This document shows, piece by piece, positions 4,894 through 41,526 of a stretch of DNA of 64,000 nucleotides. The notes under the pieces were generated by a model. That model saw only the letters and a list, made by a program, of their open reading frames with translations, was not told where the DNA came from and ran no database searches. Numbering within the stretch: the stretch's first letter is position 1; every line of letters starts with the position of its first letter. Location of the stretch: contig NC_088295.1 of assembly GCF_032854445.1 (NCBI RefSeq), positions 69,099,058-69,163,057 of the forward strand, written 5' to 3'. A program made the translations under genes and the position numbers. The DNA comes from Liolophura sinensis (Eukaryota; Mollusca; Polyplacophora; Chitonida; Chitonidae).

Positions 4894-5029
4894 TCAACAA
4901 CCTGCGGATGGTCGTGGGTTTCCCCCGGGCTCTGTCCGGTTTCATCCCACCATAATGCTGGCCGCCGTCGTATAAGTGGAATATTCTTGAGTACGGCGTA
5001 AAACACCAGTCAAATAAATAAATAAATGT
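4894..5029 (+). mobile_element. 5'-truncated SINE
   Basis: CAACCTGCGGATGGTCGTGG through GGCCGCCGTCGTATAAGTGG and CAGTCAAATAAATAAATAAA. Confidence 0.7.
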
Positions 5030-5142
5030 ATCAACCCATGAGCCAATTCATATGGACACGCAGGAATGGGTGCATCGTGGACACACAGTTACACACAAGC
5101 CACGCACTCTATATATAAACTTGACGTTACTGATAAATTACA

Positions 5143-7170: not shown

Positions 7171-7324
7171 ATGGCTGTCCCGTTTTCCAACACCAAACTG
7201 AGAGTGCCCAAGGGCTTTCAAAATATCTTGGAGGGCCTTGCCAGGGAAATCCTGAGAAGTCAGCCTAATGATTTGTTTGATTTTGGAGCTGTCTATTTTG
7301 AAAATTTGCTGAAAGTGAGAGAAG
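7171..7324 (+). CDS. SPA17: Exon 1a: RIIa dimerisation/docking domain
   Basis: 51 codons plus 1 nt, ending in donor GAAG|GTAAGC. ATG at 7171 has A at -3 and G at +4. It is very close to vertebrate Sp17 exon 1, with the conserved P-x-G-F, LEGL-REIL and YFE-LL helices. The upstream frame is open to 6988, but this ATG matches the family start. A CGCAG acceptor at 7151-7152 and a GAGA|GTAAGT donor at 6850/6851 suggest a spliced 5' leader. Confidence 0.9.
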
Positions 7325-10300
7325 GTAAGCAAATTTGTTTAATATTATTGCTTTTCAGATATTAGTTAACAACTAGTCATTTCCTCAAGAGGAAGTCCAT
7401 TTGAAAATGAATGTTCTAAATTGTTAAGTTGACTACTCATGGACTCTTGGTTTTTCATTATTGACTGCCTGTCCCAGACGACTTGAGGTCATGTTGTAAA
7501 TCCAGGAATCAGAGGTGGCAAGTAAAAGTTCTTCTGGCAAAAACACCAGGACCAATACTATATTTGTCAAATGTGTAAAATAAATGTTTTGAGACATTTC
7601 CAACCCTATATCACGTGGGATACCAATACAATATTATGTACACGTATATTATTATCATATTGTATCCCAGGTATCACTTAGGTGCATGTAAGCCCGTCAC
7701 TTTCATCATCAGTAAAGCTAGTAAAGCTAGGCTGATGAAAGTTTGTTTTATTATCATTTCTGGTACAATAAGAATTTCACCTCTCGTGACCATTTAGGGT
7801 CAACAAAATGAGATAATGAGGGGAGGGGCAGAGTGGCGGGGTGATGACATGCGGGAGTGTCAGAAAAGAATTAATCAAGTGTGATAGATCATATATTTAG
7901 CATAGTTATGCAATGCCAATGCTCTTTCACATTTATTTATTTTTTTAAAGTTTAATGTTGACATTTGCTTGCTCTACTACTACTGTATCACACAGTAACA
8001 CGGTATTGTGCAAATATTCACATTTGAAGTCATCATTTTTCAGTAACTTGACAAGGTGATTTATTTGTAATAAATGGAATAAAGTGATTTATATGCACAG
8101 CACATATATTGATTTTTGTTTATATTTCATGATGGTAGAACACATATTCTTATCAGTGAAACTCAGCAAGACAACATCATCAAATGAAAGCATTTGAGAT
8201 ATGGTATGGTGCACATTGCACTTTCCAGAATTACATGAAGTGCATTATTTCCCTGTGTGTAGAGTAGTTGTCTGATAAGCATGTAATTGTACATGTGTAT
8301 AACTAAAATAGCATTAAAGTATAAATGGCAACGGATTAAACATGAATAACTTATTACGGGTCTAGAAATACAGGTAACAAAAACATGCTGGAACTTCACA
8401 ATCTTTATGGTTTTAGTTTTCATGCTTTTACTTTTAATTTCATGCAGTGATTTAAGTTAATGTTGAAAGGGACATAACTCTTTCTGTTTTACAAATACAG
8501 ACATTCATGCTAGGGTGTGTATATTATTATATAATAGCGATTTTGACTGCACAAAGAACTTAGTCTGTGTACACAGTGTCTTGGAAAGAAATAAAACTTG
8601 TTCAAAAGTTTTAATGATGCTTTTACATGAATGTGTCTTTTTTGTCTCTTTAAAATATGGTTAGCGCGCTAGCGCAGTGTAATGACCGAGGACCCTCTCA
8701 CCAATGCGGTCACTGTGAGATCAAGTCCAGCTTATGCCGGCTTCCTCTCCGGCCGTAAGTGGGAAGGTCTGCCAGCAACCTGCGGATGGTCGTGGATTTC
8801 CCCTGGGCTGTGCCCGGTTTCCACCCACCATAATGCTGGCTGCAGTCGTATAACTGAAATATTCTTGAGTACGGCATAAAACACCAATCAAATAAATAAA
8901 TAAATAAAATATGGTCATTGTATTTATTTGTAGTGATAGGCTAAATCTACAGAAAAAAAAACACATTTGTAAAATGTTTGTTTTTTGTCAGTACTTTCAT
9001 GATCTTTCATGATTGTCCATAATTTATATAAAGTTTAGGCAAAGGGCTTTTCAATGATTACCTTAGTCACCTTTCATAGCATTGAAAGTATATGTAATCT
9101 AGTATATGTACTTTATTTTTGTATATGTACTTTTATTTTTGTCCTTTATTGAAGAGTACAATTCAAAATGGCTGGTTAACAAGTAATGGCACTGACAATT
9201 ATTTTCATATGATATTACCTCATGTATCAACGCCGATTTTCTTTATTATATAATCCAAATGGTTCAGGACATTGCGAATTACCTGTTATCACGTTGGATT
9301 ATATTAATTAATATGTCACGTGTTTGATTCAGAATGTTCCTCATCATGCTAAGAGTGAGTATATGACATGTTTTTGCCAGTTTCTTGTGACTGTTGGTGA
9401 GGCAAGGTGATGTGATGTCACTGGTTGGTTTGTAATTTTGCCAGTAGGATATAAGTATTCAGAAATAATGCCAATATCCTAGGCGTAAAGGCTAAAAAAC
9501 TATTCAGTAGCTTATACTTTTTTCTTAATATATGTGAGTGAATTTTGTTTACAAACTGAGTAAAAAAAAAACGCACATTTAAACAAAAAACAAAAGATCT
9601 GGAGGAGAAAAATTTGCATCATTATGGCTTATTCCCAAATGTGAATTTAGAAAAATGATTACTTGATCACTTATTTTTACATCGGAAATTGTTTACCCTC
9701 CTCTGTGATGATCAGCCAATCAGAAACAGGTCTTTCAGCTTTAAACAAATCCAGCTGGCTGGGCCATTGTTAGTGCCCTACAGTTAGGAAGAATGCATGT
9801 ATGGAGAAGACTCATCCTAAGGGATGGAATGATCTTGCTGTGTAGATAGGGCTCATATTCAAGCCAGGACACACACTAAACATACAGCCTCTCCAGACCA
9901 GATGGATACCATCAACACTTTTGTACATGTTGGTGGGGTTAACGCTTTCACTGCCTGAAGTCCTGGGAAATAACATAGACATGTTGGCAGACATGCAGGA
10001 ACGACCACCATATGTGTGTCACTGTGGCAGATAGCATGTTTCATCTATGGCAAAAAGCTAATATCTATTTTACAAAGTAATACAAGTAATTCTAAATAAG
10101 GCTCTCTTCAAAAAAAGAAAACAAACCCCAAAATCAAAAATTAGTTAATAGTTTAAAGAGTATATAAGTATACTATTTTAGGATCCGTACAATGTGGGAG
10201 CCAGGGCAAAGTAAATAAATATTATGGTAAATTTTGCCCATTGGTAAGTTTGATGTTTTGCTTGATTTTTGAGTTCTGTTGATGTTAGAACTTGAAGTGT

Positions 10301-13300
10301 GGAAGATAGTATGGTATCATTTCAATGACAAAAGTAAGATTGTATGATCTTTACTTGAATCTAAATATAGCCACTTTTTGGGTCCAAATTTTGGTCATTT
10401 GCCTTAGATAAAAATTGACAGCCCTGACAACTGCCAAGGAAATAAACACTCCAGTCAAAGTAAACTCTCTTTAAAGATCTGCAGTCAGAAGGGTGACTTG
10501 ATACCATTTTCACTGATAATTTCTTTCATATTTCAGGTTAAGAAAACTAGCCTTGCTTGCACTATATCTTTAGAATTACTGGGTTTAATTTTACTAACTT
10601 TGGTTTGAGCATCAGGGTTACTTTTCAGTATATGGATTGATGAACTTATAAGATACTCCCAGGTCAGTGACCTTTTCCATGTGATCTTACTATCAAGTTA
10701 TTCGATCAAATTTAATCAAATCTGGGTTATACAAATATTTTAGGTTAAGATAAACAATTGGGATTTATAAACTTGTGAGTGAGTGAGTGCTTGGGGTTTA
10801 ACGTCGTACTCAACAATTTTTCAGTCATATGACGACGAAGGAATCATTAGGGTGCATGCACGTGTAATGTGCCTCCTTGTTGCAGGACGGATTTCCGCTG
10901 CATCACTGAGACGACTTACCGAAGGCAAGTAAGCCGCCCCGCCCAAGCCATTATACTGATATGGGTCAACCAGTCGTTGCACTATCCCCTTCATGCCGAA
11001 CGCCAAGCGAGGAATTTACAACTTCCTCTTTTAAAGTCTTAGGTGTGACTCGATCAAGGATTGATCCTGGATCTACCGGTCCCGAAGCGGACGCTCTACC
11101 AACTGTGCTATCCGGGCCGGTCTATAAACTTGTGAACTTCTAGGATACTTTCATATATGTGTGATTTGTCAAGTCATTTTGAGGCATTAACATTTCTCTT
11201 CAAGTACTTCAGATGCTTGAACCCCCAATAATAAAACATTATCTGAAATACTAAGTCAAGGGTCACCGGAAAACATTAGGTCCATGAGTAAATAGCAAAA
11301 TATATGTATGATAAATTAGTGTATGATTACATAATCTTGCATCGCAAAAAGAATGGTGAATCGTAACCTTGCCAAGGGAGAGGCAACAGATTAGCTACCA
11401 CTAACATTAGGGGATTCTACCTGGTAGGCAAAATTCAGTTTAAATGATTTAGGCCAGCTTATGTTTTTGCAGGTGTTAATTTACTTAAGCCGTAACATTT
11501 TTATTGGCCATTGTATAGAATGTTTAGGGTTAATTCAGAATGTTATGACAAAGTCTTATGAATAATGTATTAATCTTCAGCTTGTGATTCTGAAATATCT
11601 GAATTTTTTTCATTGAACTAGTGTGTGTGTGTTTATTTGTATGCATATGTACATGTATGTAAATGCAACCCTTGGATTCAAGAAGGTTGGCTATGACATG
11701 TGGGCTGGGTTGGTATGATTTATTGCTAACAGGTCTTATTGGCAGTATTACTGTAGCTGCTGAATAATGTGTTTGATATGTGGCATACAGCACCATACAG
11801 AATGAACTAATACCACCCTGTGATGCTGAATCTAATGGCCATCACTAATCGCCGCTAGTCGATTAGAAGAATTGATGTGCTGTCATTCCTACACTTGTAT
11901 TGATTTGTTGCCAGTGTGAATGGTGCTGTAGTCCTGTGGCCAGGGTCAAGACTGATTGTATACATGTACAGTTTGCATGGTTTCCAATAGCTGCATGGAA
12001 TCTTTGGTATCTCTGTATATATACACTCTGAATTAAGAGGATAAAGGCTCCTATCTGAGAATTAATACATCAACAGTAGAACAACCCATGCAGGAAGCAT
12101 GATCTCACTTACTGACAGCTACTGTTACATACCTCCTTGTTAGTACTCTACTGTGTCTCATGTTATACATCTTTTTTTTTTGTAAAGAAAAGAACAAGGC
12201 TATTGTTATTCACTCTACATGTTTATTCAGCTATACATCATGTAACTATAGCTGTCAGTAATTAAGCTCCTTAGTTGTATCAATGTACAATAAGCTGGAA
12301 CGTATATGTAAACAGGAAAATTAACTACATGCGCATAATAAAGTATGCACATTTGTTTCAAACATGTTTTATGTAAATAGTATGTTTAAAACATTACATG
12401 CCTCAACACACAACCTGGTTGGATGATACAGAGTGTTGTTGAGGGGTGTACACTGTGTCCCAGAAAATAGAGACTGCTGGCACTAACAAAAGACTTGAGG
12501 GGCTGTGACATTGAGTAAGCTGACAGTAAATCAGTCTGATGTCATGCCATGGGCCTGTGCATGTCTCCCACATATCAGGTCAATGAAAGGTGAATGTCCT
12601 GCAGTTGATTGACCTCTCTGCCTGGGTAACCTTGTACTTTGTACCCTGGCCCTGAAAGGGTTAAGACTGTGTGCGCTTGTAGAAACCATTCATACCCAAT
12701 GCTCACTGGCAAAAATAGCTACTGACAGGCTTGGGCTGGCTGTGCTGGGGCTGTATGCAGTATCTCCAGACATAGGGATAGGGAGAGTATCCAGCCTGGC
12801 TATAACAGATAGGAAAGGCAATGTGGACAAGGCTTTCACAAATTAATTCCTCTTGCAGCATTGATTGTCATTGTTTTGGACAGTAGCACATTTGAAGGTA
12901 TTTATACCTGTCTTCAAAGCATTTACAAGATTGACATCATTTTGGTGCCAGCAGACGGGGGATTGAGCAGAAGGGATTCACAGGACTGTATGAACAGAAA
13001 ATTGTCAGGTCAGGCCAGCTTTAGCAACCAAGGCTCTTCAGATAGAATGGTATGTATGTACAGCGACTGTATGGCTGTAGTCACCATTTACAACCGCATC
13101 ATTTTAGGATGTTTGTGATGGTTTGTAACCATACGAAGCTTTAATGGCTAAACATCAGTCATGATCATGATATCAGACATGGGGTAGGGGGGGTCCTGAG
13201 GAGGGTCACTACAAAATAATCTGGTCATTGCGTGTTACATATTTAAGCTTGCTTGAGCTTTAGTGTAACCAGTGTAGTTTAAAGGATAGGCTATTTCCTG

Positions 13301-16300
13301 TCTGGATTCCAGCATACCTCTGTGTTATGTGAAGATGCCAGTTACAGGCAAACTCTAAGTGAGGTTTTACATCGGGGTAGGAAGGAGGAGGGTGGGGGGG
13401 AATTATTTATCAACACATCAGATGTTCTCAGTGCACCTATGTAGCCGAACAAAACATCAGACTTTCATATCTGCATTGACTACATTAATTAAAAGGACAG
13501 TTAATTTTAATATTCTTCTTTCTTTTAACCATTTTTTAAATACCACTGATGAAAAATTTCATCAAAATAGAATTTTAAGTAAAATGCTTTCAGGCAGTTT
13601 GATTTATATGTATTTAGGATTGGAAGGGTACAGTTGCACTTATTTATGAGTCACTGTCATATTCTCTATTCTGAAGCTTCAGAGGTGAATAACCTGGGAC
13701 ACAAACAAATACATGTACATATGATGCTGTGAGCAGTGAACCGTAGTTGACACACTCTTGAGGGCATTTTATTGAGTGGAGGAACAACTATTAACAGCAG
13801 TTATACTTCATAAATTGATGATGCAATGGGTCATTAGTAAAGGAACAGGTAAACTGGTTTTATGGACATCTTGAAGTGCTTTGCAACTGGCTAAGAGATA
13901 CAGAACAACCTATCAAGCAATCAAGCATTCAGTAATGGGGATGTTTTATGCTGTGCTGTATTGACCTAGATAATCTGCATTCACAGTGACAATATTAAAT
14001 ACGCACCCCCCCCCCCTCCCCATCCACTCCTGAACATGGGTGTTTACTAGATAGAACCTGGGGTGCTTGCTTGCTTTTTTTCTTCTTTGCAACACACAAA
14101 TTTGTAACAAGTTCATTTGTTCGTTTACCTACGTTTACTGAAAACCATTTAACTTGGTATTTAAGAATTTATATACACACAATAACAGGAACTTATGGTG
14201 CGCCAATGTTGCACACTTTAATCTGTTATAATGCATGATCGCAAATTTAGATTGCTTCATGTAATTATTTGATTTTTCTCTGAGTGTGATTATGTTACAT
14301 TTTCACTTAAAAAAAAAAAAGAAAACTCTCAGTGTTAACAGTGTTTCTGTTGATCTTATTCTCAATTTTTTGTGATGATATTTAGTAAGCAGTCAGTGGT
14401 GAGGAAAGACAGTATAAATACAGATACTTGCAGGCCATGTAGTTGTGTAATTGGGTAACTTTTATTTAAGCTTCACAGATGCAGGAGTTATAGTGAGAAA
14501 ACAGCCCCTTATGTTGGCCCACATCTCAATTTTGTTGTCTTAGTCATGGGATAGATGTGTTGTGGCAGTGACGCTAAGTGTCATTCAAGGGAGATAATCC
14601 CTGGACTCGTTCTTAATTTTGCCTTTATTTAGGCTGACAAAAATCATGAACCCAGGGTCATTCTCTTTAAAGTAGCAATAATACAGCGGGTTCACAAACT
14701 GCTATGATATGGGCTCTGAAAATATGATTAATTTTTTTGTCTTGAAATTGGGTAGTTAATTACAGAGACCACTTAGTTGACGTTGATTTATGCAAGATTT
14801 TTGCATGTGTGAACACAGTTGAATGTTCCTTACTATAAATCCGTCACATTTTAGACTGTTTCTCACCATAATTCTTGCAACCTGATTTGTCGAATGACCG
14901 TTACCCCACTCCACAATTAGCTGCCATGTTCAGCTAGTTGAACTTTGAGCTCTTCGGTGTTTGGAGGTAATTGTCTATAGCCTTCAATAAAAAAACCATA
15001 GGGCACAGCTTAACCTGTTTGTATTACCAACTCAGTGACATAAAGGTATTGCTAAGAATTATGCCTTCTTATTGGCTAACAGACCACATATTTAATTTCA
15101 AGTTTGCAATATGGTTTCCCTGAAAGAGGTACAGCTCTGGCTTGTTATATACTGTCTTTGGAGCTATGTAGCTTTTTAACAAAATTTAAAACTTGTGGGA
15201 TTGTAGGCAGTACACTTTGAATTTACTGTGTAGCTGAGAGTTTTCTTTTCTTTTAAAGGTAGAACTACAATTCCTACCTCTAGTAGTTAAGTCACAGATC
15301 TGTGCTTTTTTTTTTTTCCCCCACACCTAATGATCACGTATCTATATTTGATAGTGTTCTACCAAATCACCACTTATCCTTTTTATCTCTTTTTGGCAGT
15401 CTACACTGATATTAGCCAGCCTGTAATCCCTGGAAGTATACCTCTCCTACCTACTCCTAAGCGCCATTACTCTCTCCAATTTATAGACAGACAGCTTTTT
15501 TGGAACTTAACCTAAACATGGGGTGCTCTTTCAGTGCAGCTAGACAAGCCAAAAAGGAAGGTGACAAGGAAGGAAACACGCTGAACCTAAAACCTGAAGA
15601 TCAGTCTGGCGAAAATTTGCTTGATAAAGCTGCTGTTGAAGTGAAAGAAGGTGTTGCAGCAGGGAAAGAGGGTTTGAGTGACGTAGCTGCTGATCTAGAT
15701 GAAGCTATGGATAAGGGAAAGACAACAGTATCTGAAAAAGCTGCGTCAGCAAAGGAGTGTGCATCAGATAAAATGAATAATGCAGGTGAAGAGATACAGT
15801 CCAAAGCAAAAGAAGGCAAGGAGGTTTTGTCTGCAGGAATGACAGAAGTTAGCTCAGCTGTTAAAAAAGGTACAGATAAGGTATCAAAAGACGCCAAAGA
15901 TGCGAAAGATGCAACAGTAGCTAAGGCTTCTGAAACTGGCGACAAAGTAGGATCTGCATTGCAGACAGGAAAGGAGAATATTGCAGAAGGAGTCAGTAAT
16001 GCTTCTGAAAGAGTTGGATCTGCTGTGGAAAAAGGCAGAGAGGAACTTGCATCAACAAAAGAAAAGGTTGCTGCGAAAGCCAGTGAAGCCAGTGAAGAGA
16101 TTGGCTCAAAAGCTGAAGATAGCAAAGAGAGCGCATCCACAGGAGTTCAAGATCTGTCTTCAGCACTAACAGAGAAGGCATGGGAATTAAAAGAAGCAGC
16201 AGAAAACAAAGCCACGGAAGTTAAAGAACAGATAATATCAGTAGTTGTTGCAGGGAAGGACACTGCTGCAGCAGGATTGGGAAAACTGTCTGCAGGGTTT

Positions 16301-19300
16301 GGGTCTGTGGCTGAAGACACAAAAAGTACGGCTGAGTCTGCAAAGGACAAGACATCAGAACAACTAAGCCAAGCTGGTGAGAGTATTGGATCATCAGTTG
16401 ATAGTGCAGGAAAGAATCTGTCTGAAGGGGCAGCTAACTTAAAAGCAGAGGTTGGGTCTGCTGTTGACTCTGGTAAATCCATAGTGTCAGAAAAAACAAC
16501 AGAAGTGAAGGAAGCGGCAGCTGCTAACATGTCAAAAGCTGGCGAAACAATTGAATCTAATGTGAAAACAGGTAAAACAAAAGTGTCTTCAGGATTTGAA
16601 TCTGGTTTCAATGAAATATCCCAGAAGGCAACAGAAGCAAAAGATGCCACTGCAGATAAAATGTCCAAGATGAGGGATTCTTTTGGATCTGCAGTTACTG
16701 AAGGCAAAGAAACTGCAGCTGATAAATATTCATCTGCGGTTGACTCGGGTTCTGATGCTCTGTCCAAAGGCAAGGAAAAAGTCTCATCTGGCATGAGTGA
16801 AATGTCTCAAAAAGCAACAGAAGCCAAAGATGCTGCTGCTGCACAAATTTCCAAGATGGGGGATTCCATTGGATCTAAATTTGCTGAAGGTAAAGAAACT
16901 GCAGCTGAGAAATATGGGTCTGCGGTTGACTCAGGTTCTGCTGCTCTGTCCACAGGCAAGGAAAAAGTCTCATCTGGCATGAGCGAAATGTCACAAAAAG
17001 CAACAGAAGCCAAAGATGCTGCTGCTGCACAAATTTCCAAGATGGGGGATTCTGCTGCATCCACTTTTACTGAAGGTAAAGAAACTGTGTCTGATAAGTT
17101 TGGATCTGCAGTTGACTCTGGTTCTGCTGCTCTGTCTACTGGCAAGGAAAAAGTCTCATCTGGCATGAGTGAAATGTCACAAAAAGCAACAGAAGCCAAA
17201 GATGCTGCTGCTGCACAAATTTCCAAGATGGGGGATTCTGCTGCATCCACTTTTACTGAAGGTAAAGAGACTGTGTCTGATAAGTTTGGATCTGCAGTTG
17301 ACTCGGGTTCTGCTGCTCTGTCTACTGGCAAGGAAAAAGTCTCATCTGGCATGAGTGAAATGTCTCAAAAAGCAACAGAAGCTAAAGATGCTGCTGCTGC
17401 ACAAATTTCCAAGATGGGGGATTCCATTGGATCTAAATTTGCTGAAGGTAAAGAAACTGCAGCTGATAAATATGGATCTGCAGTTGACTCGGGTTCTGAA
17501 GCTCTGTCCACAGGCAAGGAAAAAGCTTCATCTGGTCTTAGTGAATTGTCACAAAAAGCAATGGAAGCCAAAGACGCCACTGCTGCAGAAATGGCCAAGG
17601 CTAGACAGACTGTTGAATCAAAATTTGCTGAAGGTAAAGAAACTTTGTCTGATAAGTTTGGATCTGCAGTTGATTCCAGTAAGGATGGTGCTTCCTCTGT
17701 AAAGCAGAAGATGTCATCTGGGTTTTCAGATTTATCGGAAAGTGCTGGATCAGCAGTTGACTCAGCCTCTGAGCAATTAGGATCTGCTGTTGATTCGGGC
17801 AAAGAAGCAGTTTCAACTGGAAAAGAAAAGGTTTCTTCAGGACTTGATAATTTTGCTTCTAGTTTTGGATCTGCTGTTGATTCTGGGAAATCTGAAATAT
17901 CCGAACATGCAAAAGCTGCAAAAGATGCAACGGCAACAAAACTAGATCAGGCAAGTGATAAGTTCGGATCTTTGATGGCAGAGGGTAAAGAAAGTGTGTC
18001 AGCAGGAGCTGAAGAGGTTTCAGAGGGGATGTCATCAGCGAAAAGCAAAATAGTTGAGAGCGCAGAATATGGAGAAAAAAAGCTAACTAATCTGAAAGAT
18101 GATGCCAAGGAAGAAGGCTCTGGCGTTGTCGGATACATATCTACACAGGCAGAAGAAATAAAACATAAAGTTGGCGAAGTTGTAGATCAAGGAAGGCAGA
18201 TTGTGTCCGAAAAGGTGGAACAGGTTGGTCAGTCTGCTCAGTCAGCTAAATCATACATAAGTGAGGGAGCAGGAAACCTCTTTGGTTACGGAGGATCTGC
18301 AGAGGAAAGCAAGGAGAAGCAGGGAGATCCTTCAACAGAGCAGTTTTCCAAAAATATTGTGGAATCTGCACTCACTGGAGCTATGGCTTCTATGAGTCCA
18401 TCAGACCAAGCTGTTGACCCTTCTGACATTAAGCTCCAAACTCACAATGAGTCTCTGTCTGGTGAGTGAGTGCATGAAGTCCACAACACTGCATGCCTGC
18501 TGCTACACCAAACATAAGAATTCAGTCTTGTGTAGCGTTAGTTGCTTTTGGAGTAGCTGCAAAGACCAATTTCATTTGGAACTAGCCAAACATTGGAGAT
18601 TGTTGCTCGGGAATGTTATTTAGCATGACTAGTGTTAAAACGAATGAGACCTGTTTTCACTGTGTTACTAATATTAAGAAATGTACTTTACTGTCATGGT
18701 ATACCATTGGCAGCATTTCCACTAATGGCATTCAATGTTTTATCATTGACCTTCTATACAAATATATAAAACAAAAAAAAAAAAATGTGATTATGTATGA
18801 AGAGATCAATCTCAATTGAGTCATATTTAGTAGTTGTTCCCAATCTCAAGAAAGACACTCTCAGTATGTCTTTCCCTGTTGTCAGCTTATTATTAGGCCT
18901 GTTGAACTTAAATTTAATAAATATATAAAGTCAAAAAATGAAATGTTGGCTGTTCATACAGTTGTATTCTTGCCACGTACCTTGGATCATTTGCGAATCA
19001 AAGTGATGGTTTTGAGGTTTAACCTGTCTAAACCTGTCTTCTTGTATAACATGGAAGCTGGTTTTACTTCTGATTTAGTTTGAGACAAGTCAGAGGGGAA
19101 CAGCTACAAGAACTGGCTTTGGTGAGATTGTAGGGGATTGTCAGAGAAAAATTACTGTAATATTATGATCATTTTTGGTTGAAAATTTTTGTACTTCAGG
19201 TTATAGAAGTTTTACATTATGGTACTTATTATTTTACAGATTAACCAATCCTTAAACTGGAGGAGAACACTTAAAATGACAGGAGTTAAGGGCATTCATA

Positions 19301-22300
19301 TGTACACATTTCGACATACATGTACCTTTATACATACATATTTCTGTAGATCAGTGTTACAGTTTTTCTAGGATGTAAAATTGTCCATGCCCATGCGCCA
19401 TTTTTTTTGGTACCCATTGGTGCTGAGGGGCACATTTGTACATACCTTTTTTTATGATTTTTGTCTTGGCATCTGCATGTATTAATTCAAGTAACTTGAA
19501 TGTTAGTAATACACTCTACTTGTTGAGACTATTGTATATTTCTAATGGATTTCTAACTGCAGTTCTTGAAGACCTTTTAGATTGTAAAAAATATCATATG
19601 CAAGCATTGTATTTCAAAGAATGTTGAGAAATAGATTGACACTGTTGTATACTGATGGCATGGTTATATATGTTAGGTAGCATGATTATTTACAATGTTG
19701 TACAAGTACATGTGGGTACTTTCTTCGCACTTGTTTTTCTCTTATGGTCCTGCATGCTGCGTGGAAATATCTACTGATAAGTTACCTTCTGTTATTACCT
19801 TGTTAGGACAATTTTTGCTATTTTACTATCACTATAATTTATGTTATAGTCTGGTAGATGCTCGTTAGGGATTGTCTACATTCTGGACTGACACTTTTGC
19901 ATGTTTATTTGTCACTTGAATCTGTAGCTCTGACAGAAAGCTTGCCCATAAGGCTATGTGTGCATGTTCATTTTCTGAAGTGTAGATATGAATAGATAAG
20001 AATGGTTCCACAACACTGCTACAATGCATGCACATGTAACTGCCAACACTTTGAGCACAGATACACACATATGGTGTGAATAATATTTAAATATAAAACT
20101 ATTTTTAAAACTGCCAGATTTATGCCTCATCATGATTTAGATGTAATCATTTTTCTTTTGCTAGACAAAATCATATGTAGCGCACACTACTAGTACCTTC
20201 AATGACTGTACTTTGAACAGTATGTTTGTGCCACAAATTTCTGACATGAGTGATGGCTTTATAATATATGCTACAACTCAAGACATTACATGTACAGTGC
20301 AGTATGCTGATTTTGAAATTTGTGAAAGTTGTTTAAATATTTTGTCAAAATAATCAGTAGAGGTGTACACGTGTCCTTATATGTGTATTTGTATCTAACC
20401 AAGCTAAGGTTTTGGTATTGAAATGTAGGCCGGCAATGGCTGTCAATGAGAAAATCTTGTTATGAAAATTGCGTACATTGATCCATCATTGATTATGAAG
20501 AAGTTATTGATTCACTGCCTTGCCACTTAAAGTACATGTACATATTAATAGTATAAATATATAATTGTCTCTGATTGCTTGGAACGGTTTATTGGGATTT
20601 ACGTTCTCAGGCTAGGCTTAACAATTAAGACAAACCAGCACTTGAACATGTATAGAACTGCTTAGTTAAGGCTATCCAAATGGATTTGGTTAAGCCACAT
20701 GGAAAACAAGGGCTCTGCACCCTTGGTGGTCAGAGCATGTGATGTTGGCATTACATGTAGCTTGACTTTCAAATCATGATAATACTGTGAACAATATAGT
20801 GTAGACTTTGGTAACATGACTGCACCTGACCTTAGTATTGCAGTATATGTTTGTAGTCTGACAATAGTTAATGACTCATTTTGATACCCGAGACAGTAGG
20901 CTTTGATGTAGAGGCGGCAATAATTGGCTGATGTATGTAGTAATTGATTGAGTAGGACTGTCAGCAGTGCGCAAGACCAACTGTGTGTTAGCATCTACAT
21001 GTAGGCTGTGCAGGCTACCATTTTAGTTTCCACAGTAATGACAATCCATATTAGACAAAGGCATTGATTTGATAGTGTTTACCTGGTGGTGTTAGATGTG
21101 AAAGTGAAAATGATTGCACTGTTTATGATGCAGTGATCAAAGTTGACCTTTTTTTAATAACTATTATGTTTATAATAATTATCTTTATTATCATAGAATA
21201 CCTATGCTGTGTGAATTTTAATTCATATAAATTCCAAAAGATTGCTGCCATGTGCATGCCATTACTGATGCAAGAAACAAAACAGAGAAAACGAAGTAAA
21301 AAAATAAAATATGTAGAAAAAATGACAGCAAGATAAAAAAAAAAAAAAAACAAAAAACAAACTATTAGATGTGTTATGAAGTGCTTCTAATGTTTAGATT
21401 TGTAAGGTTTTTGCATTCCTCTGTGTATGTCACCTGTCTAGCTTAAGGCCTCTCCTATTGTTCCAAGTTCATGACTCAAGAACATTCAGTCAGTACTAGT
21501 AGCTATTTTAACCCATATTTTTGCCTCATACCCATTTTGAACCATGGTGTTTTTGCCAGAACATCTTGTCATTTAATTGTCATTAACTTGAATGTATGTA
21601 TAAAGCTAGATATTTAACTGCATGTGGATGTAAATACGTGCAACAGTGGAATGTCAAAAGCTTTGTGATGAGTACTACGCCCACATACATTAACACTGCC
21701 TTCTTTACATGAGGACAACACACTCTAATGGGCAGGGACTCTGGTGTAGAAATGTTAACCTTTTACTAAAACACCTGAGGCCCATGTGATCACAAAGTTG
21801 ACATGTGTAAGGCTCCTCAGTCCTGCCACAGCCTGGCCTCTCTGGAACTTTTGTACACCAGGTTTGTAACTGTTTTTCTTTCTGTTTGTGTTTATCCATA
21901 ATAATATTTTAGCTAGTTTCTGCATGTACATGTACTTGGAGAATAGTTAAAATATTCCCCTGTCACCTATGCCTGTGGTTTAGAACACAGAGTACCTTTT
22001 AAATGTGGTCTATTCATTGATTTGCATCATGCTTGTGCAGGATTTCCATGTGCCCATTGAACTTAATCTTCCATGAGAGTTACGTGTAATGCACTGGAAT
22101 CAACATATCGTCAAGATTTAAACGTATAGTTGCACGAATGCTGTGATGCTTGGTTCTTTAGAGTAATTTACAACAACACACATCATATGGACAATAGATA
22201 GAAATGAATGTTGGCTTTCTTGTGCTGCTCTTCCTCCATTGTCATTCTTCAATGATGAATATTTCGCTGCATTTACACCAGTTAAACATACTTTTAAATG

Positions 22301-25300
22301 TTTTGTCTAACTGTATATTCATCAGTAATGAGCAGTACTGCATTTTTCCTTATTGAAACATTGGAAAAAACATTCATACTGTCTGTGACAGTTACATGTA
22401 CACATGAATTACTGAAACATGTTTCTTGTATGTTTTTGCATACTTTCCCCCAATTCATCTATATTATTTCAATTGGTATTTTGTTTGCAGAGACGGGTCA
22501 TGATCCTGCTGTACATGGTGCTAAACTGGAGGACAGATTCTACAACAATGAGAGCTTTAAGGTTAGCATCATTTGTTTAAGTAATTAAACCATGCAGCTA
22601 TGGATATTTTATGTGAATTTGAAAGTTGGAGGTTCATGGTAGACTTGTACCAGTTTGTGAAACAGAGAATGTTTTTTTTTAAGGAATACTGATTTTCTTT
22701 CATTGATAAAGTGCCCAACTTTAATTCTGTTTCCACCTTTTTCCCCATGTGACTATAAACTGGTAATTACAGTATTCTGGAAAGATTTAGAGTTTGTGTT
22801 CTTATGCATGTAAGGGTAAGTATTTACAGTATGACTGACCGAAAACCTGCGTATATTGGTAGTTTCATGATGATTTTTTCTTTTTAGAATCTCTCCTCAG
22901 ATACCAGACAACCAACCCCCCCTCAGAGTGAGACAACTCAGGGTCAGAAAACGTAAGTTTATGGAATTTGTTATTTATATGCAGTTTTACTGGCATTTAA
23001 CTCCATAGTTCCGATTTGTTGTTTCATTACATTATCATTTCAATAAATAACAGTTAATGTCTTGTATGGCAGTCTTGTTTAAATTCTTGTGGATGGAAAC
23101 TTTGTTGATGTGAAAATAAGTGCTCTTGACTCATCGTTAATTTAAGAAAATTTGAAAAGCTAGGTTTGCAGCCTTTATTTTATTTTATTTTATTTTTTTT
23201 TGGGCTATTCTTATAAACACCTGCATCCCCCCCACCCCCCCTGCATGCAGTGTATCATATTGGAAGATGTCAGTGTTCAGTTCTTCATTAGCACAAAAAA
23301 GTAACCTGTAAGTGAAACTTACTGGGACAAGCTGCAAACAGTTTATTGATGCATCCTATCATGTCTGTGAACTCGTGAACTAGCTGATATTGACTTCCTC
23401 TCCGGCCATACATAGGAAGGTGTTGCAGCAACCTTCAGGTGGTCTGGGTTTTCACGAGCTTTGCCTGGTTTCCTCCAACCATAATGCTGGGCTGTAAAAA
23501 AAGTGAAATATTCTTGAGTATAGCATAAAACACCAATCAAGTAAATAAATTTCTGTAAACTGGCATACAATTAACCTGACAATCACTCACACTAAAAATT
23601 GTGTGTATTGGTGTTTTTCTCAGTTTTTTAGCATGTTCAAGAGGTGTTGAATAGGCTTGAACCAGTGAAACTAAGATGGCTTCTTCATTTTTCAGAGTTA
23701 TAATCTGTCATGCAACACTTATTGAATATTGATAATCTTTACAATTTTTTGTAATTGTTGACTGGTCAGCTTTAATCAGTGACAATTGTATGTTCATGAA
23801 AATGTGGAACGCAGATGTAGGCTGATGTACTGCACAGTATGGGGTTATTGTTTGGGGAAATTCCCACGTGGTAGCCACTTACATGTACCAGTGCTCTCTT
23901 GTAAGCTTAGGCTGCAAAACTTTGCTCATGCATGTAGCTTTTGTTAAGATTTCCCATGTGTGGTTATCTTGACATAAGTGGAATGTGGTACTTATTGTTA
24001 GGTTTGTTGTCTCTTGAATGTGAGAGCCGGATTTGAAAATGTTTCTACTCTCCTCCAGGACTGAAGAGGAAGAGATTGACATTGACCTTGATGACCCTGA
24101 AGTGGCTGATGCTGCCATGAAAATCCAGGCTGGTTTCCGTGGTTTCAAAGCAAGGAAAGAGGTACAGAGCAAGGTAAGAGTCAGTTCTGTTTGGCCATGT
24201 GAATGTAATGAGCTTTGATGACTGTGATTGTGTGCTGTGGTATTTCTGTTACACAGCTAGATTACAAGTACATGTAGACCTGAATGCCCTAGTAGCTCTA
24301 CTTTTGTATTATAAAGCCAGTTTTACTTAAATTCATGAGCAGATATAATTCCCGTGCATGATGCATTATTTCAAGACAGATTAGGCACATATGGGAGAAC
24401 ACCATCAACAAATTATCATCATGTCATTTTGTGAGAATGTGATTTGCATGAGTTTAATGCTTTTTATTATCTTCAAGAAAATCATTTACATGCCACATAT
24501 ACGTGTAGTCAGTTTATTCACTGTTTATGGGAAATCTTTGTGTGGATATCACTGATCAGTTTTGGTAGCTTGTGAAATTACGGTTCACATGAAAAAATTA
24601 AAAAGAAAAAATAAGGGAAAGATTTCTTTACATATATTTTCATGCATTTGATACAGCCTCTAATTTACTTTGTGTTTTTGCACAGCAATTTAAAAAGTTT
24701 ATGGGATGGGAAGGGTCAAAGCCGTAAAAAGCCATCTCAACTTGACAAGTCATTGGCAACTTCTCGCATGCGAAGCCTAGGGATTTTAATATTGCCGGAA
24801 ACTGATTGGCTGTCCCATCTCAATTTTGGCACTCAGCTTGCCAAACTCCATCAAACCTCATTCTCTTGTCATTATACATCTGATCAATAATTTAAACAGC
24901 GATGCACAGTATCTGTCTCATGCAGTGGCGGTGACTCTTTAACAGAAAGGCTGTGGTGATGATGATGATCTTAAGTCATAGATGTAAGGTATTACCATCA
25001 CTCATTCTGGCTGAATACCCTGTATTCTTTCATGCTGCTTAATGATGTGTTGTCCCTGTGTGACTGAAATATGTCTGGCCATGGAGTTGAGTCCATCATA
25101 ATCAATCAATACCTAGGGGGCTGTGAAAGTTCAGATTTGTCGTGTGTAATTATAGATAGCTTTATCAAACCGTTCAGTTTCTCTGGGGTCGGTTAAGCAG
25201 TATTTAGACTCTTTGCAATCTGCTCAGAAGAGGGCTAAAAATACCTGAACTTTCTCATTTGTGAAAAAAAAATCCTCCTGCAAATGTCATTGGAAAGGCT

Positions 25301-28300
25301 TATTACCTCACAGGGTAGGTCTAAATTATTCAAGAAAGACGTAATGAAACACTGCAACTGTCCATGTATTGAGAACAGTTGTGGACTGTGTTCAGGAGTG
25401 CCAGGGAGCTGTGTGCAAGTGCAGATAGGCAAACAAAGAGTTTGTGTAAGCAGAAGGTTACAGAATTACCTATGTGGTGTGCTTCACAGGGCTCTGAAGA
25501 GGAGTGTGGTAAGGTAACTGTTGACTTAGATCTGACAGAACAGGCTGACCTACTGTCAGACCCTGAGGCTGAGTCTGAAGCTCATACCAATCAAACTGCC
25601 TCCCCTCACTGTAACATACAGGCAGGGAAAAGTCAGGAGGCAGGGTCAAATGTTGAAACAGTAGCAAATAATGAGGGAGAAGCAACAAAACCAGAGTCTA
25701 GCAGTGGAACCGATCCACCAAAAGGAGAAGAGCCTAATCCAGAGGATGAAATAGATTTGGAAGATCCAGAAATTGTAGCTGCTACTGCTAAAATCCAAGC
25801 AGCTTATATGAAACGACAGCTTAAAAAACCATCAAAGAAGTAATGTTTTTGAAGAGTTTCAGTTTTTCTCAATCATTAATTATGTCTGTTTTTGTTTGTT
25901 TATAGTCAAGTATTCATTCTTGTGAGAGATAAACCATTTACTATTTGCTGAATCTTGTCTTTTTGATCACATCATACTTGTACTAGCTTAATTCTGGCCA
26001 GAAGGTGTAATGGAGCTAACCAGACCTGGCTGTACATTTGTAATCATCTGAAATTTTCATGTAATTAAATCTACTGTTTGGAGGTTTTCAGGGTGATGGC
26101 GTTATTTCATGTCATTTTAAGTTGAATAGAATGGTTTTGATTGGTATTCAGCAATTTTATAAGGAAGTTATAAGGTGTTGAATTTAAGTTATCATTCAGT
26201 CATTGCTGGCTGTTGCTGTGCTTCATGACAAATTAGCATTTAATCCATTCCCACACAGTGATCAGTATTTGGTGCTGTATTGCCTGGAAGACGGGATTTA
26301 GTGGACGGAGGCAATATCGTTGTTGGTAGTCAATTTGCAGGGGTATCTGCCAGACCATCTTAAGCAGGTTTAGTCCTAATTTGGGTATTCCTAAGATGTA
26401 CAAACTATGGTGTCAGTAGACAGTGGAAGGAATCCAAGAAGTGGAATCAGTCAGGCTTTTAGCAGTGTGGTGAGCAGAAGACAGACCATTCATGTAAACC
26501 TTGGGAACAGTGCAGTACCAAAATGAGAGTAAAATTTCAGTGCAAAAGGGCTTCCCTGGAGACCTGAATGAAGTGTGATGACTCGGAGAACATTGTCCTA
26601 TAGCAAAGGTTTCTTCTTCATCAAGGTTTTCCCATTGACATTCTGGCTCATCCATTGTTAACGGGTCGTGTTTTGTTGCAAATATTCTAATCCACCTGAA
26701 CTTATTTATTCAGAGGAGAAAAGTGAAGGCTGCAGTGACAATTCAGGCAGGGATAAGGGGCCACCTAGCTAGGCGGAAGCTTAGGCACCTTAAGGTAACC
26801 ATCATGTGTAGCTGATGGGCTCTAACGTGTCTCAGTTCCAGCGGCATGGTTATATTACTGCTGACATAACACATGGCTCTTAACTGTCAGTAAATGTTCA
26901 CTGATGAACACGTTCACCACAGCATGACCCCTTGTCCTGCTCAGCAGTGTTCACAACCTGATGTATTAATTAGAGTTCAGGTTGTGTTGTACAGCCATCA
27001 CTACACCCATTGCCACATTTCCTCAAATGTTTTTTAGGCATGAACCTCAGCCTGTTTAACTTGTAACTTAAAATTAATCAATGTCTCGCATCAATAACAT
27101 TCTTTGTATTGTACTCATAGTTGATATAGCAACATTGATCAGCTGGGGCATTTTCATATAGAATCACTTTGCTTAATTGTTAATGTCAGTGGACCATTCT
27201 GTATGTGTTTGACCTTCTGCATGCTTCTTGAAGCCACTGTGAAAGTGAAGCAGGTCATTAGGTAGTCAAAGGATCCCTTAGCTTGATAGGAGACCTCTAA
27301 TTTTGTTTTGTGTGCTCTTAATATGTGACTAAGTGAAATCCTCAGTGATCTTTTTGTAACAGAAATAACGATTTTTGTAGCCTGTTATTTTTTTAGCAGC
27401 ACGAATGGGGTGTTTTGGGTGTACTTCATGACAAAAACCTTTGGTGTAGAGCCAACATCACCAGGTCATTGCATGCTTTATGGTGTTGTCTGTTGGTTTG
27501 TACATATTAAATCCTTGATATGTTTTATGAATGATTAAAAGTTACCTATGTCGAAGTTTGCATTTGCTGTAAATAAATGTTTACTCTGTTAAATAATTCT
27601 TATGTGTATGTACTTTATCATATTTGTTGGATTTTGTTTGTTTTGTTTAATTCTTTCTTTATTGTTTTTAAAAGTGAATTTTCAGTAATTACTTTTTTTT
27701 ATTTGAAGTACTATTTTCTTGGCATCTCTTTCACTTTAATACTTTCAAACTGTTTCATGTGGAATTTTTATTTATTTAGTTTTTGTGCAAGCGTATATTG
27801 ATGGAAAAACATTTCCTATTTTGAATGCTTTCATTTACCATTGCTTTTGTCTGTATTGCTACATGTATTAGCCCCTATATTACCCACACAATCCTGGTTA
27901 TTTCATGGCTACAGGCTTTGCCAGCTCATGTTGATCCCAATGATGAAAATGTGAACAAGGCTGCTGCTAAAATCCAAGCCCTTGTTAGAGGTCACAAGGC
28001 TCGAAGAGAGGTGAAAGCCCTGAAACTGCGAGCCTCTCATGCCCATTTTGGTATTGACCCTGACAATCCACGTGTTCACATGGCTGCCAGTAAGATTCAG
28101 GCTTTAGTCCGTGGTCATAAGGCCCGTCGAAGAGTAAGGGAACTACAGAATCTTCAACCCCGTGAAAACAGAAGAGGCAACCATGCAAACTGGCATATCA
28201 ACAACAAGAAGATGAGGAGAGCCAATCATGGTCGGTCTGCTCATCAGTCACACAATACACATGCCACAGCCCAGGGTCCTCACCAGCAGAATGTAACAGG

Positions 28301-31300
28301 ACCGCAGCCTAGTAGTGGTTCACAAGAAGTTCATGTCCACATGGCAGCTACCAAAATCCAGGCCTGGGTCAGAGGGCATCAAACCAGAAAAGACATCAAA
28401 GTGCTGAAGGTGAAGAAGAAAGTCCCCCATATAGAGTCTGCGAATTTGTTAGTAGAGAAGCCAGAGGCCCATGAAGCAGCTACCAAAATACAAGCCATTG
28501 TCAGAGGAAGGAAGGCCAGGAAAGATGTCAAGGTTCTGAAAGTGAAACATAAAGCTAAAGGACAGAAGATATCATCCAGTATAGCAGCAAAGGTATTCTT
28601 CTTCTGCATGGTCCGTGTGCAGAGGATGGCACCTGCAGGATTTGGAAAGATTGCATGAGTTTGTTAGTCTGGATGATGTAAGGTAACAGTTATACACCAG
28701 ATTGGATTTGACCACTAACAGGAGGTTCTGAGTGCCTTTAGTGCTGTATCACGCATGGTCTCCATTAAATACATGCAACTCCAATTACATCAAGATGTTC
28801 CTGGTCAGAAAGAACATTTTGAAGCATGTGAGTGGTCTCGTCAAAATTTCTAGTTAGCATTGGCTGTTATATGATCTTGTTCACTTTGTTAGCATAAGAG
28901 TGAATTGAAGTGAAATGGCAGTTTTCTTGGAGATGAAAGCATGGTATGCTGAGGATGTTGTGTTTTTTGGATCAGTCTTGGGTGATGAAAGATCTGTCAG
29001 GCGTGCCTGGCTGAGGACACTCCTGTGAGTCTTTCTGATGTGGATTAATTGTATAATGTTCTTACATGAAGCAGTCCGTGGCAGCTGGTTCTTGCATATA
29101 TATTTAAAGACTGTTCTTGTAATGCGGTGGTTGATTTGGTGTGGTGTGGAAAGCCAAAATAGTACCAAATTATTGGCAGAAATATTGTCTTTACAAAAAT
29201 AAGAAGATTGTTGTCTTCTGGTAAGTCCAAACTGAGTTCATTTTTTTTTATGGTTGAGTTTTTTTGATGCATGGATTTGTTCATTTTATTATCATTTTTT
29301 GATATTGTTACTGATTTGAGATTTTGCAATTTTATTTCTCCCATTCTGTTTGTTTCTCAATTTTTGCAATATGATTTTGAACACACTTTTGTTATTTTTC
29401 ATGTTAAGTAAGCTCTGAAATTAAACAGTTCAGAAAATGGAAAAAAAAAAATACATTATTTGAAATAGGTTTTTAAATAAAATGTATGCAAAGAGGTGGA
29501 GAAATTAACGTATGGATTTGTCTAGTACAATCATAGTACAAAGAGGTAGACACATGTGGACTTGATATAACCAATCTATGACATCCATTGGTAATTCAGC
29601 ACATTTGTTCAGAAATTTACCCTTAGTACTTTACTCGTTATAGTTTTCATTGGTTTCTTTTTGTGGGGTATTTCCACTTTGAGAAATTTAAGAGTTTACT
29701 GTTATTTTCTTATTCACTTCTGACTGTGGCTTAAATATGAATGTACCATTAAGCACATTTTCAGATTGAGTTTGGAAGCCAGTTGATAGGCATCTGTTTA
29801 ATACAGTTGGTTATAAACCAAAGAGCTAGAACACCTGCATTTAGAAATTTTTATACATACCTTAACAAGAAATAATTGATAGACACATGTGCGTAAGATG
29901 CAAGGTAATAATACTATGCAGATCTTTTTTTCAGTGAATGTGGGAGTCTAAAACTAGTTCCTAATCTTAAGGGTGGCATTTGTGTCCTGCACAGTTCAGC
30001 TGTACATATATTTGTGAGATAATTAATGCATGGGTGTGAGCATGTTGTTAATTGCATGTTGTTTGGTCTATTTTTTTGTTCATAGGTAGAAGCTAAAACT
30101 GGAAAGCAACCAGAAAGCAAACCTGAAGCTTCGACTAAACAAACTGACCTTGACCCTGAACTTGCGGACATTGACTTGGATGATCCTGAATTGAGTAAAG
30201 CAGCCACTAAGATACAGGCTGGGTTCAGGGGTCATGCAGCTAGAAAACAATTACCCGCTAAATCAACAGAGGTTTGTACACATGTCACTGTTAACAACGA
30301 TGTGTGGCCAGCCAAAAATGATCTTCACATGGTGCAGCGAATGAACAGTTCTCTTATTTTTAGAGCTATGTCAAAGTTTAAACTGCAACACTTTATAGCA
30401 AAAAAAATGTCTTTGATTATATACATGTAATTGAAATTTTTGGTCTTGAAATGTACTATAACTTTACATTTTCGAGGAAAATAAAATTCGTTATTATGAA
30501 GAAAATTAGCAGTATTGTTGTTAAAAAAAGGCACAAAGCAAATGTTTCATGAACACATGTACATGTGTGTGAACAGCAAATTAGATTTCTCTGATAAATC
30601 ATTTATGAATTAAAGGGTCAGGATTATTTTCTCTTACAGATAAGCCCATCTAAATGTTTCTACTTGTAGATCATGTAACAGTTTGACTGGAAGTGTACAT
30701 TCAGAACGACCTTATCAAACACAATGCCAAAAATTGTTATTATAAGTCTGCCACATCGAAACAATAGTCCAACATTCCAGTGACACTTCACCATGTAGGC
30801 CTTATCCAAACATAATTCTAACTTTTGATAATGACGTCTTTTGTAAAGCTGACTTTGAAATTTAAATTTAGGTTGATTTTATTTTGATATGCATCAGGCT
30901 GTATGTATGTAAAGATGCTGCTATTACTGGCAGAATGTGGTGGTGCATGATATTAGCGTTTGTTTGTTTTCTGTTTTATAATTGTTGCTTGTTGCCTGTA
31001 CTAATTGTTAGGTGGAAAAGAAGTCTGAAGGCGAGGTAAAGACAGAAGGTGATAACAAAGAGGAAGAGATAGATATTGACCTGAATGACCCTGAAGTGGC
31101 ACAAGCTGCTACTAAAATACAGGCTAGTTTTAGAGGTCACAAGGCCAGGCAGGAAATCAAACATCAGGTGTGTAATAAACAAAATTGTGTAAAATTTATG
31201 TATAAATTGAAAGTTTTGGAAAATTTAGGTTTATTTCTTTGAATTGTGTTATGCCAAGTGTGTGTGTGTTGTACAAACTGACTGATTTTATTTCTTTTAT

Positions 31301-34300
31301 ATAGTACAAGTGCCTACGTACTGTATACATGTAAGGCTTAAGTAGATTTAAATGAAGTAATGTATAAAATATAGCTTAAGGCAGTTAGAATTACATACAG
31401 AAATAATGATGGTGTATGTGGCACATCAAAAGTGCTGCTTGCCATGATATACCATGGTGTGACTATTATACAGCTGATATATATGTAGCATTACTTAAAC
31501 CATAATCTTTTACTCAAAATGGATGACTCTTCAAAGATAATACATGTAGCAAGGTCTGACACCTAAGTTATTGTAAAATAAAGAGAAATCAAAGGTATGG
31601 AAACAGCTGGTGTGAAGTTTATGGGAGTCATTTAACACCAGGTATTATTGGCTCAGGAGCTGTGTGAGTGGAACTGTTCCCTGCATATACCATGTATAAC
31701 ATTGCATTATATAATCAGTAGTCACAAATTCAACATTTGAGATTTAGGAAATATGTAACACAACCTCAGAAAAGCTCACATACAAACTCATGGTGCCAGT
31801 TTGTTTGTGAAATGTTACATGTAGATCATTTTGTTTTGTTATGTTTTTTGTTTTGTCTAATATGTCAGTTTGAAATTGTGTTTGCATTTTGCAACTTGCT
31901 GACCCCTAAAAAGCTGTGAGTTGTTGTTAAATAACCCTGTATTGATGTGGGTTGTATTTATATGTGTAATTTGTTATGTTTATGAATGTTGTTTGTTGCC
32001 TGTACTAATTGTTAGGTTGAGAAGAAGTCTGAAGGCGAGATCAAGATAGAAAGTGATAACAAAGAGGAAGAGATAGATATTGACCTGAATGACCCAGAAG
32101 TGGCACAAGCTGCTACTAAAATACAGGCTAGTTTTAGAGGTCACAAGGTCAGGCAGGAAATCAAACAGCAAGAGGTGTGTGAACAGACTATTTTGTGGTT
32201 ATAGGTATATCATTGTGACATTATGATTACTTCATATAGGTCAGGCGTCAGGGAGAGATAATTTTGAAATTGATGAAGCAGCATCATGCTCATATATGTT
32301 GTCCTGTTTTCATGTGGTTTGCATCTAATTTGTTGGTTGATCAAATTAACCTTGGACTGGTCTTTCTAAAGCAGGGTCTGATTTTGCAAAACATGAAAAC
32401 TTAGTTTTTTCTATATAAATGGTCACGTTCATTTCATTCATTTTGAGAATTCTACCCTGAAAACAGCATCATGTTCAAATGTTATCCTGTTCTGTTGTGC
32501 TTTCTTTCTAACTTGTTTGTTGATTGAGTGTTGTTTGCCTGTACTAATTGTTAGGTTGAGAAGAAGTCTGAAGGTGAGATAAAGACAGAAGGTGATAACA
32601 AAGAGGAAGAGATAGATATTGATCTGAATGACCCAGAAGTGGCACAAGCTGCTACTAAAATACAGGCTAGTTTTAGAGGTCATAAGGCCAGGCAGGAAAT
32701 CAAACAACAGGTGTGTGAACTATTCAGCAGTTAAACATAAATTGTGATATGATAATTTCATAGAGGCCTGGCTTCAGGTAGAGACAGGTAGACTTCAATA
32801 TATAGTCAAGTTGTACATCTACTATAATTTCTTTAAGTTTGCAATAGATTGTTTGGATGACCACATTGTCCATAGAAATCATTGAAATTATCTGTAGACA
32901 TCTGCTTTCTGAAGACATTTGCTTTCTGGTCAAAACTCTCTAGATTGGCTTTAACATCACACTCACACTTGTTCATCATGAACAAGATTTCATTTTTGAA
33001 AACACTAAATAAAATGTAAATTTGCACAAATACTCATTGCAAGTTGCCAGTATTTTTGACATTTTTTGTAGTAACCTGCTTTGATCCAAGTTTCTATTGA
33101 TAGAGAGTTTACAAGCTCAGGTAAACTGCCAAACCCAGAAGAGTTTCTGTGTATTCAGTCAGTATAAACAAGTGTACTACCAGGGAAATGATCATTTCAT
33201 AACACAGGATTAATGTGTGTTTGGTTGCCATCTAGACTGTTACCATGGCAACAATAGCTGCCAACAAATAGAGAAGCCCTGGGTATTTTTAGAGTTCTTG
33301 GGATAGACAAATCTGCCTGATAGTGTTACATTCATGTGAATAATACATGATATAGTGCTAGTGAGTCTACTAACAGTAAGGTAAATATCATTTTAAGCGT
33401 TTATATAAGCAGCCTTGAACAATTTTGTGTAGAACAGAATTCTAGATACTTGCAGTCATAACTATACACTTCATCCAACACTTTTAATACAGTTTCTGAT
33501 TGTAATTAGGATCAATGAAAAAGTAAAGAAGACTGGCTTAGTTCAATACAAGATGATTTGGTTTTCGATCAAATTGATCTTACATCGGATGTAGTCTTAC
33601 CACACCTCAAGGTGGAATCTTTCTCAAATGTTGTTTTTTTTGTTTTTTTTTTGCATCTTACTTGTTTATCGGTCAGATTAATCACAGAATGATTACAGTC
33701 TTACCACAGCAAGGCCCAATTTCACAAAGCAAATATAAATTTGAGCAAGAGATGAAAACATAAATTTTTCTATATATGGTTAAAACAGAACTGGCTTGCT
33801 TGACCATATTTTAAGAATCCAAAGTTTTTTTTTCTTGCTCAAACTTAGGTTCATGTTGAGAAATCGGGCCCTAAAGATGGCATCATGTTAAAGTGTTATC
33901 CTGTTTTGTGGTGGTTTCCAGCTAACTTGTTTGTTGATTGAGTGTTGTTTGTTCCCTGCACCAATTGTTAGGTTGAGAAGAAGCCTGAAGGTGAGATAAA
34001 ACAAGATGAAAGCAAAGAGGAAGAGATAGATATTGACCTGAATGACCCAGATGTGTCACAGGCCGCTACTAAAATACAGGCTAGTTTTAGAGGTCACAAA
34101 GTCAGACAGGAAATCAAACAACAACAGGTGTGTGGATGTAAAAGATAACACTTCATTATAAATTGTTTGTAATTTTGAAATGAGAATTAGAAAGAAATCA
34201 TGACCAATTTGGATGCATAAATGTCGCCATAAATGTTTCCAAGATATCTCAAGAAAGTGTGCTTAGGCAAACCAAATATGTGTTAGAATTAGACTCAGAA

Positions 34301-41500: not shown

Positions 41501-41526
41501 GCATTAACAACAGAATATGGCTGAAT

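Follow-up and report, generated by a model that had tools for sequence, protein, structure and literature searches.

Human SPA17 has a single IQ motif. The locus described here lies in the chiton Liolophura sinensis, in a stretch of 64,000 nucleotides (contig NC_088295.1, 69099058-69163057; hereafter the window, from whose first base positions are counted), and resembles SPA17 in three ways: its exon 1a matches SPA17 above every other solved chain, its exon 2 continues the likeness and IQ motifs lie downstream. It differs from the human protein in having 16 IQA cores in its long gene model, and in a second candidate first exon, 1b, which encodes a putatively acylated lipid-helix sequence. We consider it reasonably probable that 1a and 1b are alternative first coding exons, so that one IQ-motif scaffold would exist in two forms, one for docking and one acylated and lying on lipid surfaces. 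All results rest on one genome (609 Mb, 632 contigs). According to the excerpt of PMC8339350 drawn on here, conservation of SPA17 (Sp17) extends across metazoan phyla. Among the literature matches listed, most subscription journals lying outside the search, none described a Sp17 relative with alternative first exons. Those matches likewise contained no Sp17 in molluscs or Lingula, no invertebrate Sp17 with RIIa and an IQ motif, nothing on Akap200, and no link of Sp17 to the acylated IQ proteins GAP-43, neurogranin and igloo, which is offered as an idea only.

A precedent for acylated and other N termini on one body is provided by AKAP7. Its isoforms have a common C terminus and differ at the N terminus, the short ones being myristoylated and palmitoylated according to the excerpted text of PMC8073060, and smAKAP is reported in part of PMC13025221 to combine acylation with an anchoring helix. 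Exon 1b is like AKAP7 (AKAP18) and smAKAP in its MGC..S start and, in a likeness that falls short of significance, its predicted tail helix (FSKNIVESALTGAM, compared with LSKRLVENAVLKAV of AKAP18), and differs from AKAP7/AKAP18 in that the alternative partner here is an RIIa domain on an IQ body.

The helix of perilipin-4 is 968 residues long, with hydrophobic, charged and aromatic fractions of 0.35, 0.15 and 0.002, as given in the portion of PMC5889406 used here. The 1b product is close to it in length (about 900 residues), hydrophobic fraction (0.34) and tandem repetition, and shares with it a proline-free amphipathic helix pattern that stays in phase over hundreds of residues. It departs from perilipin-4, whose repeats are 33-mers (3 x 11) with a net charge above zero and scarcely any aromatics: the 1b repeat has 62 residues, the charged and aromatic fractions are 0.30 and 0.028, and net charge is about -1.5 rather than +1 per 33 residues. 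The 1b form would also have the MGC..S start, and an IQ body in place of the perilipin 4-helix bundle. With the apolipoproteins A1/A4/E it has in common a Pfam match over the cut-off, a basic interface and an acidic opposite side; it differs in having no proline-broken 22-mers and in being apparently intracellular, with no signal peptide apparent.

Two candidate first exons and one IQ body

Exon 1a consists of 51 codons and one further nucleotide, and scores 46.2 bits against Pfam RIIa, for which the cut-off is 22.4. The top three of its 24 PDB matches are SPA17 chains, the best being zebrafish SPA17 (7my4, E 6.4e-19), and matches to PKA RII start below them at E 7.9e-7. Splice consensus and reading frame yielded a model of 15 exons, with predicted splicing, in which the exon 1a form runs for 994 residues without internal stop and has its IQ motifs C-terminal to RIIa in one frame. 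The Pfam IQ profile, run on three open reading frames (ORFs) of the body, matched two, in two and four stretches. An earlier note on this DNA had already recognized the RIIa domain, here seen to be SPA17-type, and the multi-IQ body. It had also spoken of AKAP-type docking, a term to be used with caution: an RIIa domain receives AKAP helices and is itself no AKAP.

In the model the boundary between exons 1a and 2 has phase 1 and that between exons 3 and 4 phase 2, with phase 0 elsewhere; a phase-1 exon therefore joins only exon 2 in frame. Whichever first exon precedes it, exon 2 supplies the rest of a GAG (Glu) codon, the join of exons 1b, 2 and 3 is free of stops, and the whole 1b form would have 1924 residues. 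Codon counts and joins bear out the coordinates, phase-1 ends and in-frame connection to exon 2 that the earlier note had proposed for both exons.

The 3' end of exon 1b was judged with an approximate metazoan donor matrix built from general-knowledge frequencies. The donor, CTG/GTGAGT, scores 10.76, higher than 13 of the 14 modelled donors and second only to that of exon 1a (11.26). It had been called perfect, which is right for positions +1 to +6, although at -2 there is T rather than A. The open frame does end where it was said to, the stop finishing 8 nt beyond the last exon base. Among GT sites, 10 out of 3814 on the + strand, the donors of 1a and 1b included, and 2 out of 3655 on the - strand score 10.76 or more; the expectation for such donors in 30 nt is 0.0038 from the + strand with the known donors removed, 0.0009 from the - strand and 0.0020 from first-order Markov sequence. 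The window contains 1184 stop-to-stop ORFs that are 30 codons or longer; five of them, counting 1b, have an equally strong donor in their last 30 nt, and the other four share three distinct donor sites. Real splicing of 1b is favoured because strong donors so near the ends of ORFs are rare.

The claim that the donor shows 1b to have evolved as a spliced exon nevertheless goes too far: although such a donor is unlikely to be there by chance, 1b may yet be a stand-alone gene or be joined to a private 3' exon. As a stand-alone gene, nested in intron 1, 1b would have its coding sequence end at the TGA at 18469 and would make an acylated lipid-helix protein without the IQ body. The ORF starts at an ATG of its own, which stands in good context, and ends at its own stop, and an AATAAA at 18916 would give a 3' untranslated region (UTR) of about 450-470 nt. 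This arrangement requires, however, a top-rank phase-1 donor to have arisen by chance in the last codons, a strength matched by only 4 of the 1183 other ORFs, two of them in phase 1, and we regard it as unlikely. A separate transcript in which 18461 is spliced to a private 3' exon within intron 1 would keep the donor in use. The candidate acceptor at 18886, which would add AYY and a stop, scores 5.07 compared with 1.36 for exon 2, and the AATAAA at 18916, one of just two AATAAA/ATTAAA words in 18401-22500, is followed by TGTTGGCTGTT. Such an exon would, however, be tiny (about 50 nt, 3 codons) and would leave the phase match to exon 2 unused, and, with 66 AATAAA words on the window's + strand, a nearby copy is uninformative. 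We rate this arrangement as rather unlikely.

At the 5' end, the acceptor at 15400, with a score of 6.64, is stronger than all but one of the 14 modelled acceptors and ranks in the top 0.25% of AG sites; those at 15487 and 15495 score 3.29 and below 3. Because this acceptor is strong and the leader 15400-15517 contains no ATG, 1b appears to be an internal exon behind a non-coding first exon further upstream. It is very improbable that 1b instead serves as an in-frame cassette exon, entered at 15495 and spliced between 1a and 2, from which one protein with RIIa, lipid helix and IQ body would result. The proposal of entry at 15495 is correct as to frame, exon 1a reading through that join into 1b, but the acceptor there is weak compared with 15400, a join of 1a to 15400 misses the reading frame of 1b and terminates before the 1b ATG, and the MGC..S start would be left meaningless. 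That join to 15400 adds 38 residues to exon 1a and meets its stop just ahead of the ATG; a 7324-15400 junction would either truncate the RIIa form or create an upstream ORF.

If 1a and 1b are alternative first exons, 1a would give the RIIa docking form, and 1b would be entered from the upstream non-coding exon and hence transcribed from a second promoter. Both would be spliced to exon 2 (for 1b, an RNA junction 18461-22491), and both forms would carry the same multi-IQ body, presumably calmodulin-binding. The 1b form is predicted to be N-acylated, with its class A helix of about 900 residues lying along a lipid surface, for which the ciliary membrane, the plasma membrane and the lipid droplet are candidates. 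Should the junction be real, a ciliary or sperm IQ scaffold gene would choose between protein docking and lipid anchoring through its first exon, much as AKAP7 has acylated and non-acylated N termini, but with a lipid helix the size of perilipin-4's. Modules for calmodulin binding and PKA-type docking would in this way be directed either to protein scaffolds or to membranes, and the small group of giant class A helices would gain a member. What carries this reading was read from the sequence: ORFs, phases, splice-site strength, helix geometry and signs of constraint in the array.

Several points weigh against it. The coincidence of donor and stop was spotted first and its statistics were done afterwards. 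The acceptor of exon 2 is weak, its score of 1.36 being reached by 6.2% of AG sites and equalled or exceeded by 14 other AG sites in 18480-22490, and the poly(A)-like AATAAA lies 447 nt past the 1b stop. No promoter or first non-coding exon stood out upstream of 1b; between 11.5 and 19.5 kb the CpG observed/expected ratio of 500-nt windows is 0.07-0.43, and there are two TATA-like words, at 14834 and 15146. Finally, the 1b helix is acidic (net charge about -1.5 per 33 residues over aa 27-930). Perilipin-4 brought to a net charge of -1 per 33-mer becomes cytosolic and loses droplet targeting unless hydrophobicity is raised, according to the part of PMC5889406 consulted, and the acidity therefore speaks against a droplet as the target. 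For 1b, a likelier surface may be a bilayer or the ciliary membrane.

The predicted long helix of exon 1b

The consensus for N-myristoylation and palmitoylation comprises an MG start, a Cys at position 3 and a small residue at position 6. The MGCSFS at the first ATG of 1b fits it, as had been pointed out for myristoylation, and the modification is predicted accordingly. Behind it, the 981 residues formerly described as amphipathic are correct as a count of codons, but amphipathic order spans only about aa 27-930.

Hydrophobicity along the whole ORF product has a single dominant period of 3.65 residues (power 95.9; maximum of 300 shuffles, 12.8). The peaks before, inside and after the tandem array are 42.2, 51.4 and 31.0, compared with maxima of 18.2, 12.2 and 13.1 in 1000 shuffles each. 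Helix phase stays within about 70 degrees, and the only prolines are at 26, 938, 961 and 968. With the helix axis set from uncharged residues only, K/R are commonest 60-90 degrees away from the middle of the hydrophobic face and D/E 120-180 degrees away, a mean difference of 55 degrees that none of 10,000 permutations reached (sd 5.1). A class A helix is one with basic residues at the interface and acidic residues opposite. The predicted helix of 1b is assigned to this class because K/R flank its hydrophobic face and D/E lie opposite.

The label LEA-like, which the earlier note had attached to this region, has to give way to that of an apolipoprotein/perilipin-4-like class A helix. One of six Pfam matches is above its cut-off, Apolipoprotein A1/A4/E (PF01442; 127 bits vs 90), a match that may reflect low complexity or compositional convergence. 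An LEA identity was rejected, LEA_4 scoring 42.1 bits, under its cut-off of 51.1. Five NCBIfam matches, all under cut-off (best GvpQ, 51.6 vs 100 bits), were taken as composition-driven. A PDB search with the ORF product gave one match at E <=0.1, the designed peptide 8qae (E 0.076).

Six frame-locked units of the tandem array, pooled, gave a synonymous divergence (pS) of 0.319 and a nonsynonymous divergence (pN) of 0.142; the ratio pN/pS of 0.44 bears signs of protein-level constraint. The genome search with 1b gave 134 candidates, of which 47 were scored, and among these just one true copy was seen. Two matches reached E <=0.001: besides 1b itself there was one of 23% (E 4.6e-4), which sits in a minisatellite-like locus. 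A retrogene origin, considered on account of a run of 13 A at 18773, was rejected, no parent copy being present among the scored candidates. A target-site duplication was likewise unconvincing, 18786-18830 and 14901-15518 sharing at most one 8-mer.

The predicted tail helix and a possible docking pair

Modelled alone by AlphaFold2, aa 880-983 form a helix at 881-922 and a separate one at 938-957 (mean pLDDT 72.3, pTM 0.29). Part of the latter, as set beside AKAP18 above, looks like the AKAP18 helix, a likeness without statistical significance. A loose anchoring pattern matches once in 1b, where shuffles average 1.86 matches, and its stricter form occurs in 16.5% of shuffles. On an anchoring-helix profile the tail scores 6.2, under the left-out scores of nine of ten known helices. 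Two other places in 1b outscore it, and in three kinds of random sequence 22%, 64% and 82% of the sequences attain the top 1b score of 7.4. A PDB search with the tail peptide returned no matching chain.

AKAP membership of 1b found no support in the profile test and is retained as a hypothesis only. It deserves attention in view of the affinity of SPA17 for AKAP18, which is micromolar for SPA17 alone and nanomolar for its heterodimer with ROPN1L (from the excerpt of PMC8339350). It is a long shot that the locus encodes both docking partners, the SPA17 docking domain in 1a and the type of helix it binds in the 1b tail. Were it so, the choice of first exon would produce a membrane-bound partner and a soluble docking partner with the same IQ body.

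Feature coordinates and other observations

Table 1. Features of the SPA17-type locus, in window coordinates
Feature	Position	Strand	Description or basis
Exon 1a, coding part	7171..7324	+	SPA17-type RIIa docking/dimerization domain; phase-1 end
Exon 1b, probable 5' UTR part	15400..15517	+	follows acceptor tttttatctctttttggcag
MGCSFS, N-myristoylation/palmitoylation consensus (G2, C3, S6)	15518..15535	+	sequence and general consensus
Exon 1b, coding part	15518..18461	+	ORF, 981 complete codons + 1 nt; MGCSFS start, long amphipathic region, tail
Continuous class A amphipathic helix pattern, aa 27-930	15596..18307	+	proline-free
Tandem array, period 186 bp (62 aa), 5.7 copies	16612..17673	+	within helix; Tandem Repeats Finder
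Tail helix PSTEQFSKNIVESALTGAMA, aa 938-957	18329..18388	+	candidate, PKA-anchoring-like; AlphaFold2 single-sequence model
Exon 1b donor GTGAGT and ORF stop TGA (18467-18469)	18462..18469	+	
Exon 2, common to both forms	22491..22561	+	SPA17 post-RIIa segment; sole modelled downstream exon accepting phase 1
Shared IQ body, 13 further modelled exons	22888..37968	+	splice consensus and frame
IQ-body exons, first part	22888-22952, 24059-24173, 26714-26794, 27915-28592, 30086-30271, 31012-31167, 32016-32174	+	
IQ-body exons, second part	32555-32710, 33972-34127, 34868-35026, 36029-36190, 36538-36738, 37483-37968	+	
Possible alternative last exon	25490..25843	+	in frame after 24059-24173, runs to TAA

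A form ending at the possible alternative last exon would have 252 residues and an IQ-like end (KIQAAYMKRQLKKPSKK*), and this short form resembles vertebrate SPA17 in layout; the ORF that contains 25490-25843 has no Pfam IQ match. In the longer body, six IQ exons (starts 31012, 32016, 32555, 33972, 34868 and 36029) are nearly identical, with the same acceptor and donor words. Their near-identity over 31012-36190 therefore points to recent tandem exon duplications.

Elsewhere in the window, a neighbouring gene of several exons is suggested by short open segments on the minus strand at 44732-47000, one of which resembles an EF hand by eye (ELFHSVDRIKKGYISMNSLKEIL). Three coding-length, minisatellite-like tandem arrays (48672-49256, 50097-51141 and 55899-57033) are open in several frames on both strands. 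An interspersed repeat, present at 41422-41736 and 4859-5047 with similar translated words (GGRKPGRARGKPTTIRRLL on the + strand, GGMKPDRARGKPTTIRRLL on the - strand), is probably a transposable element.

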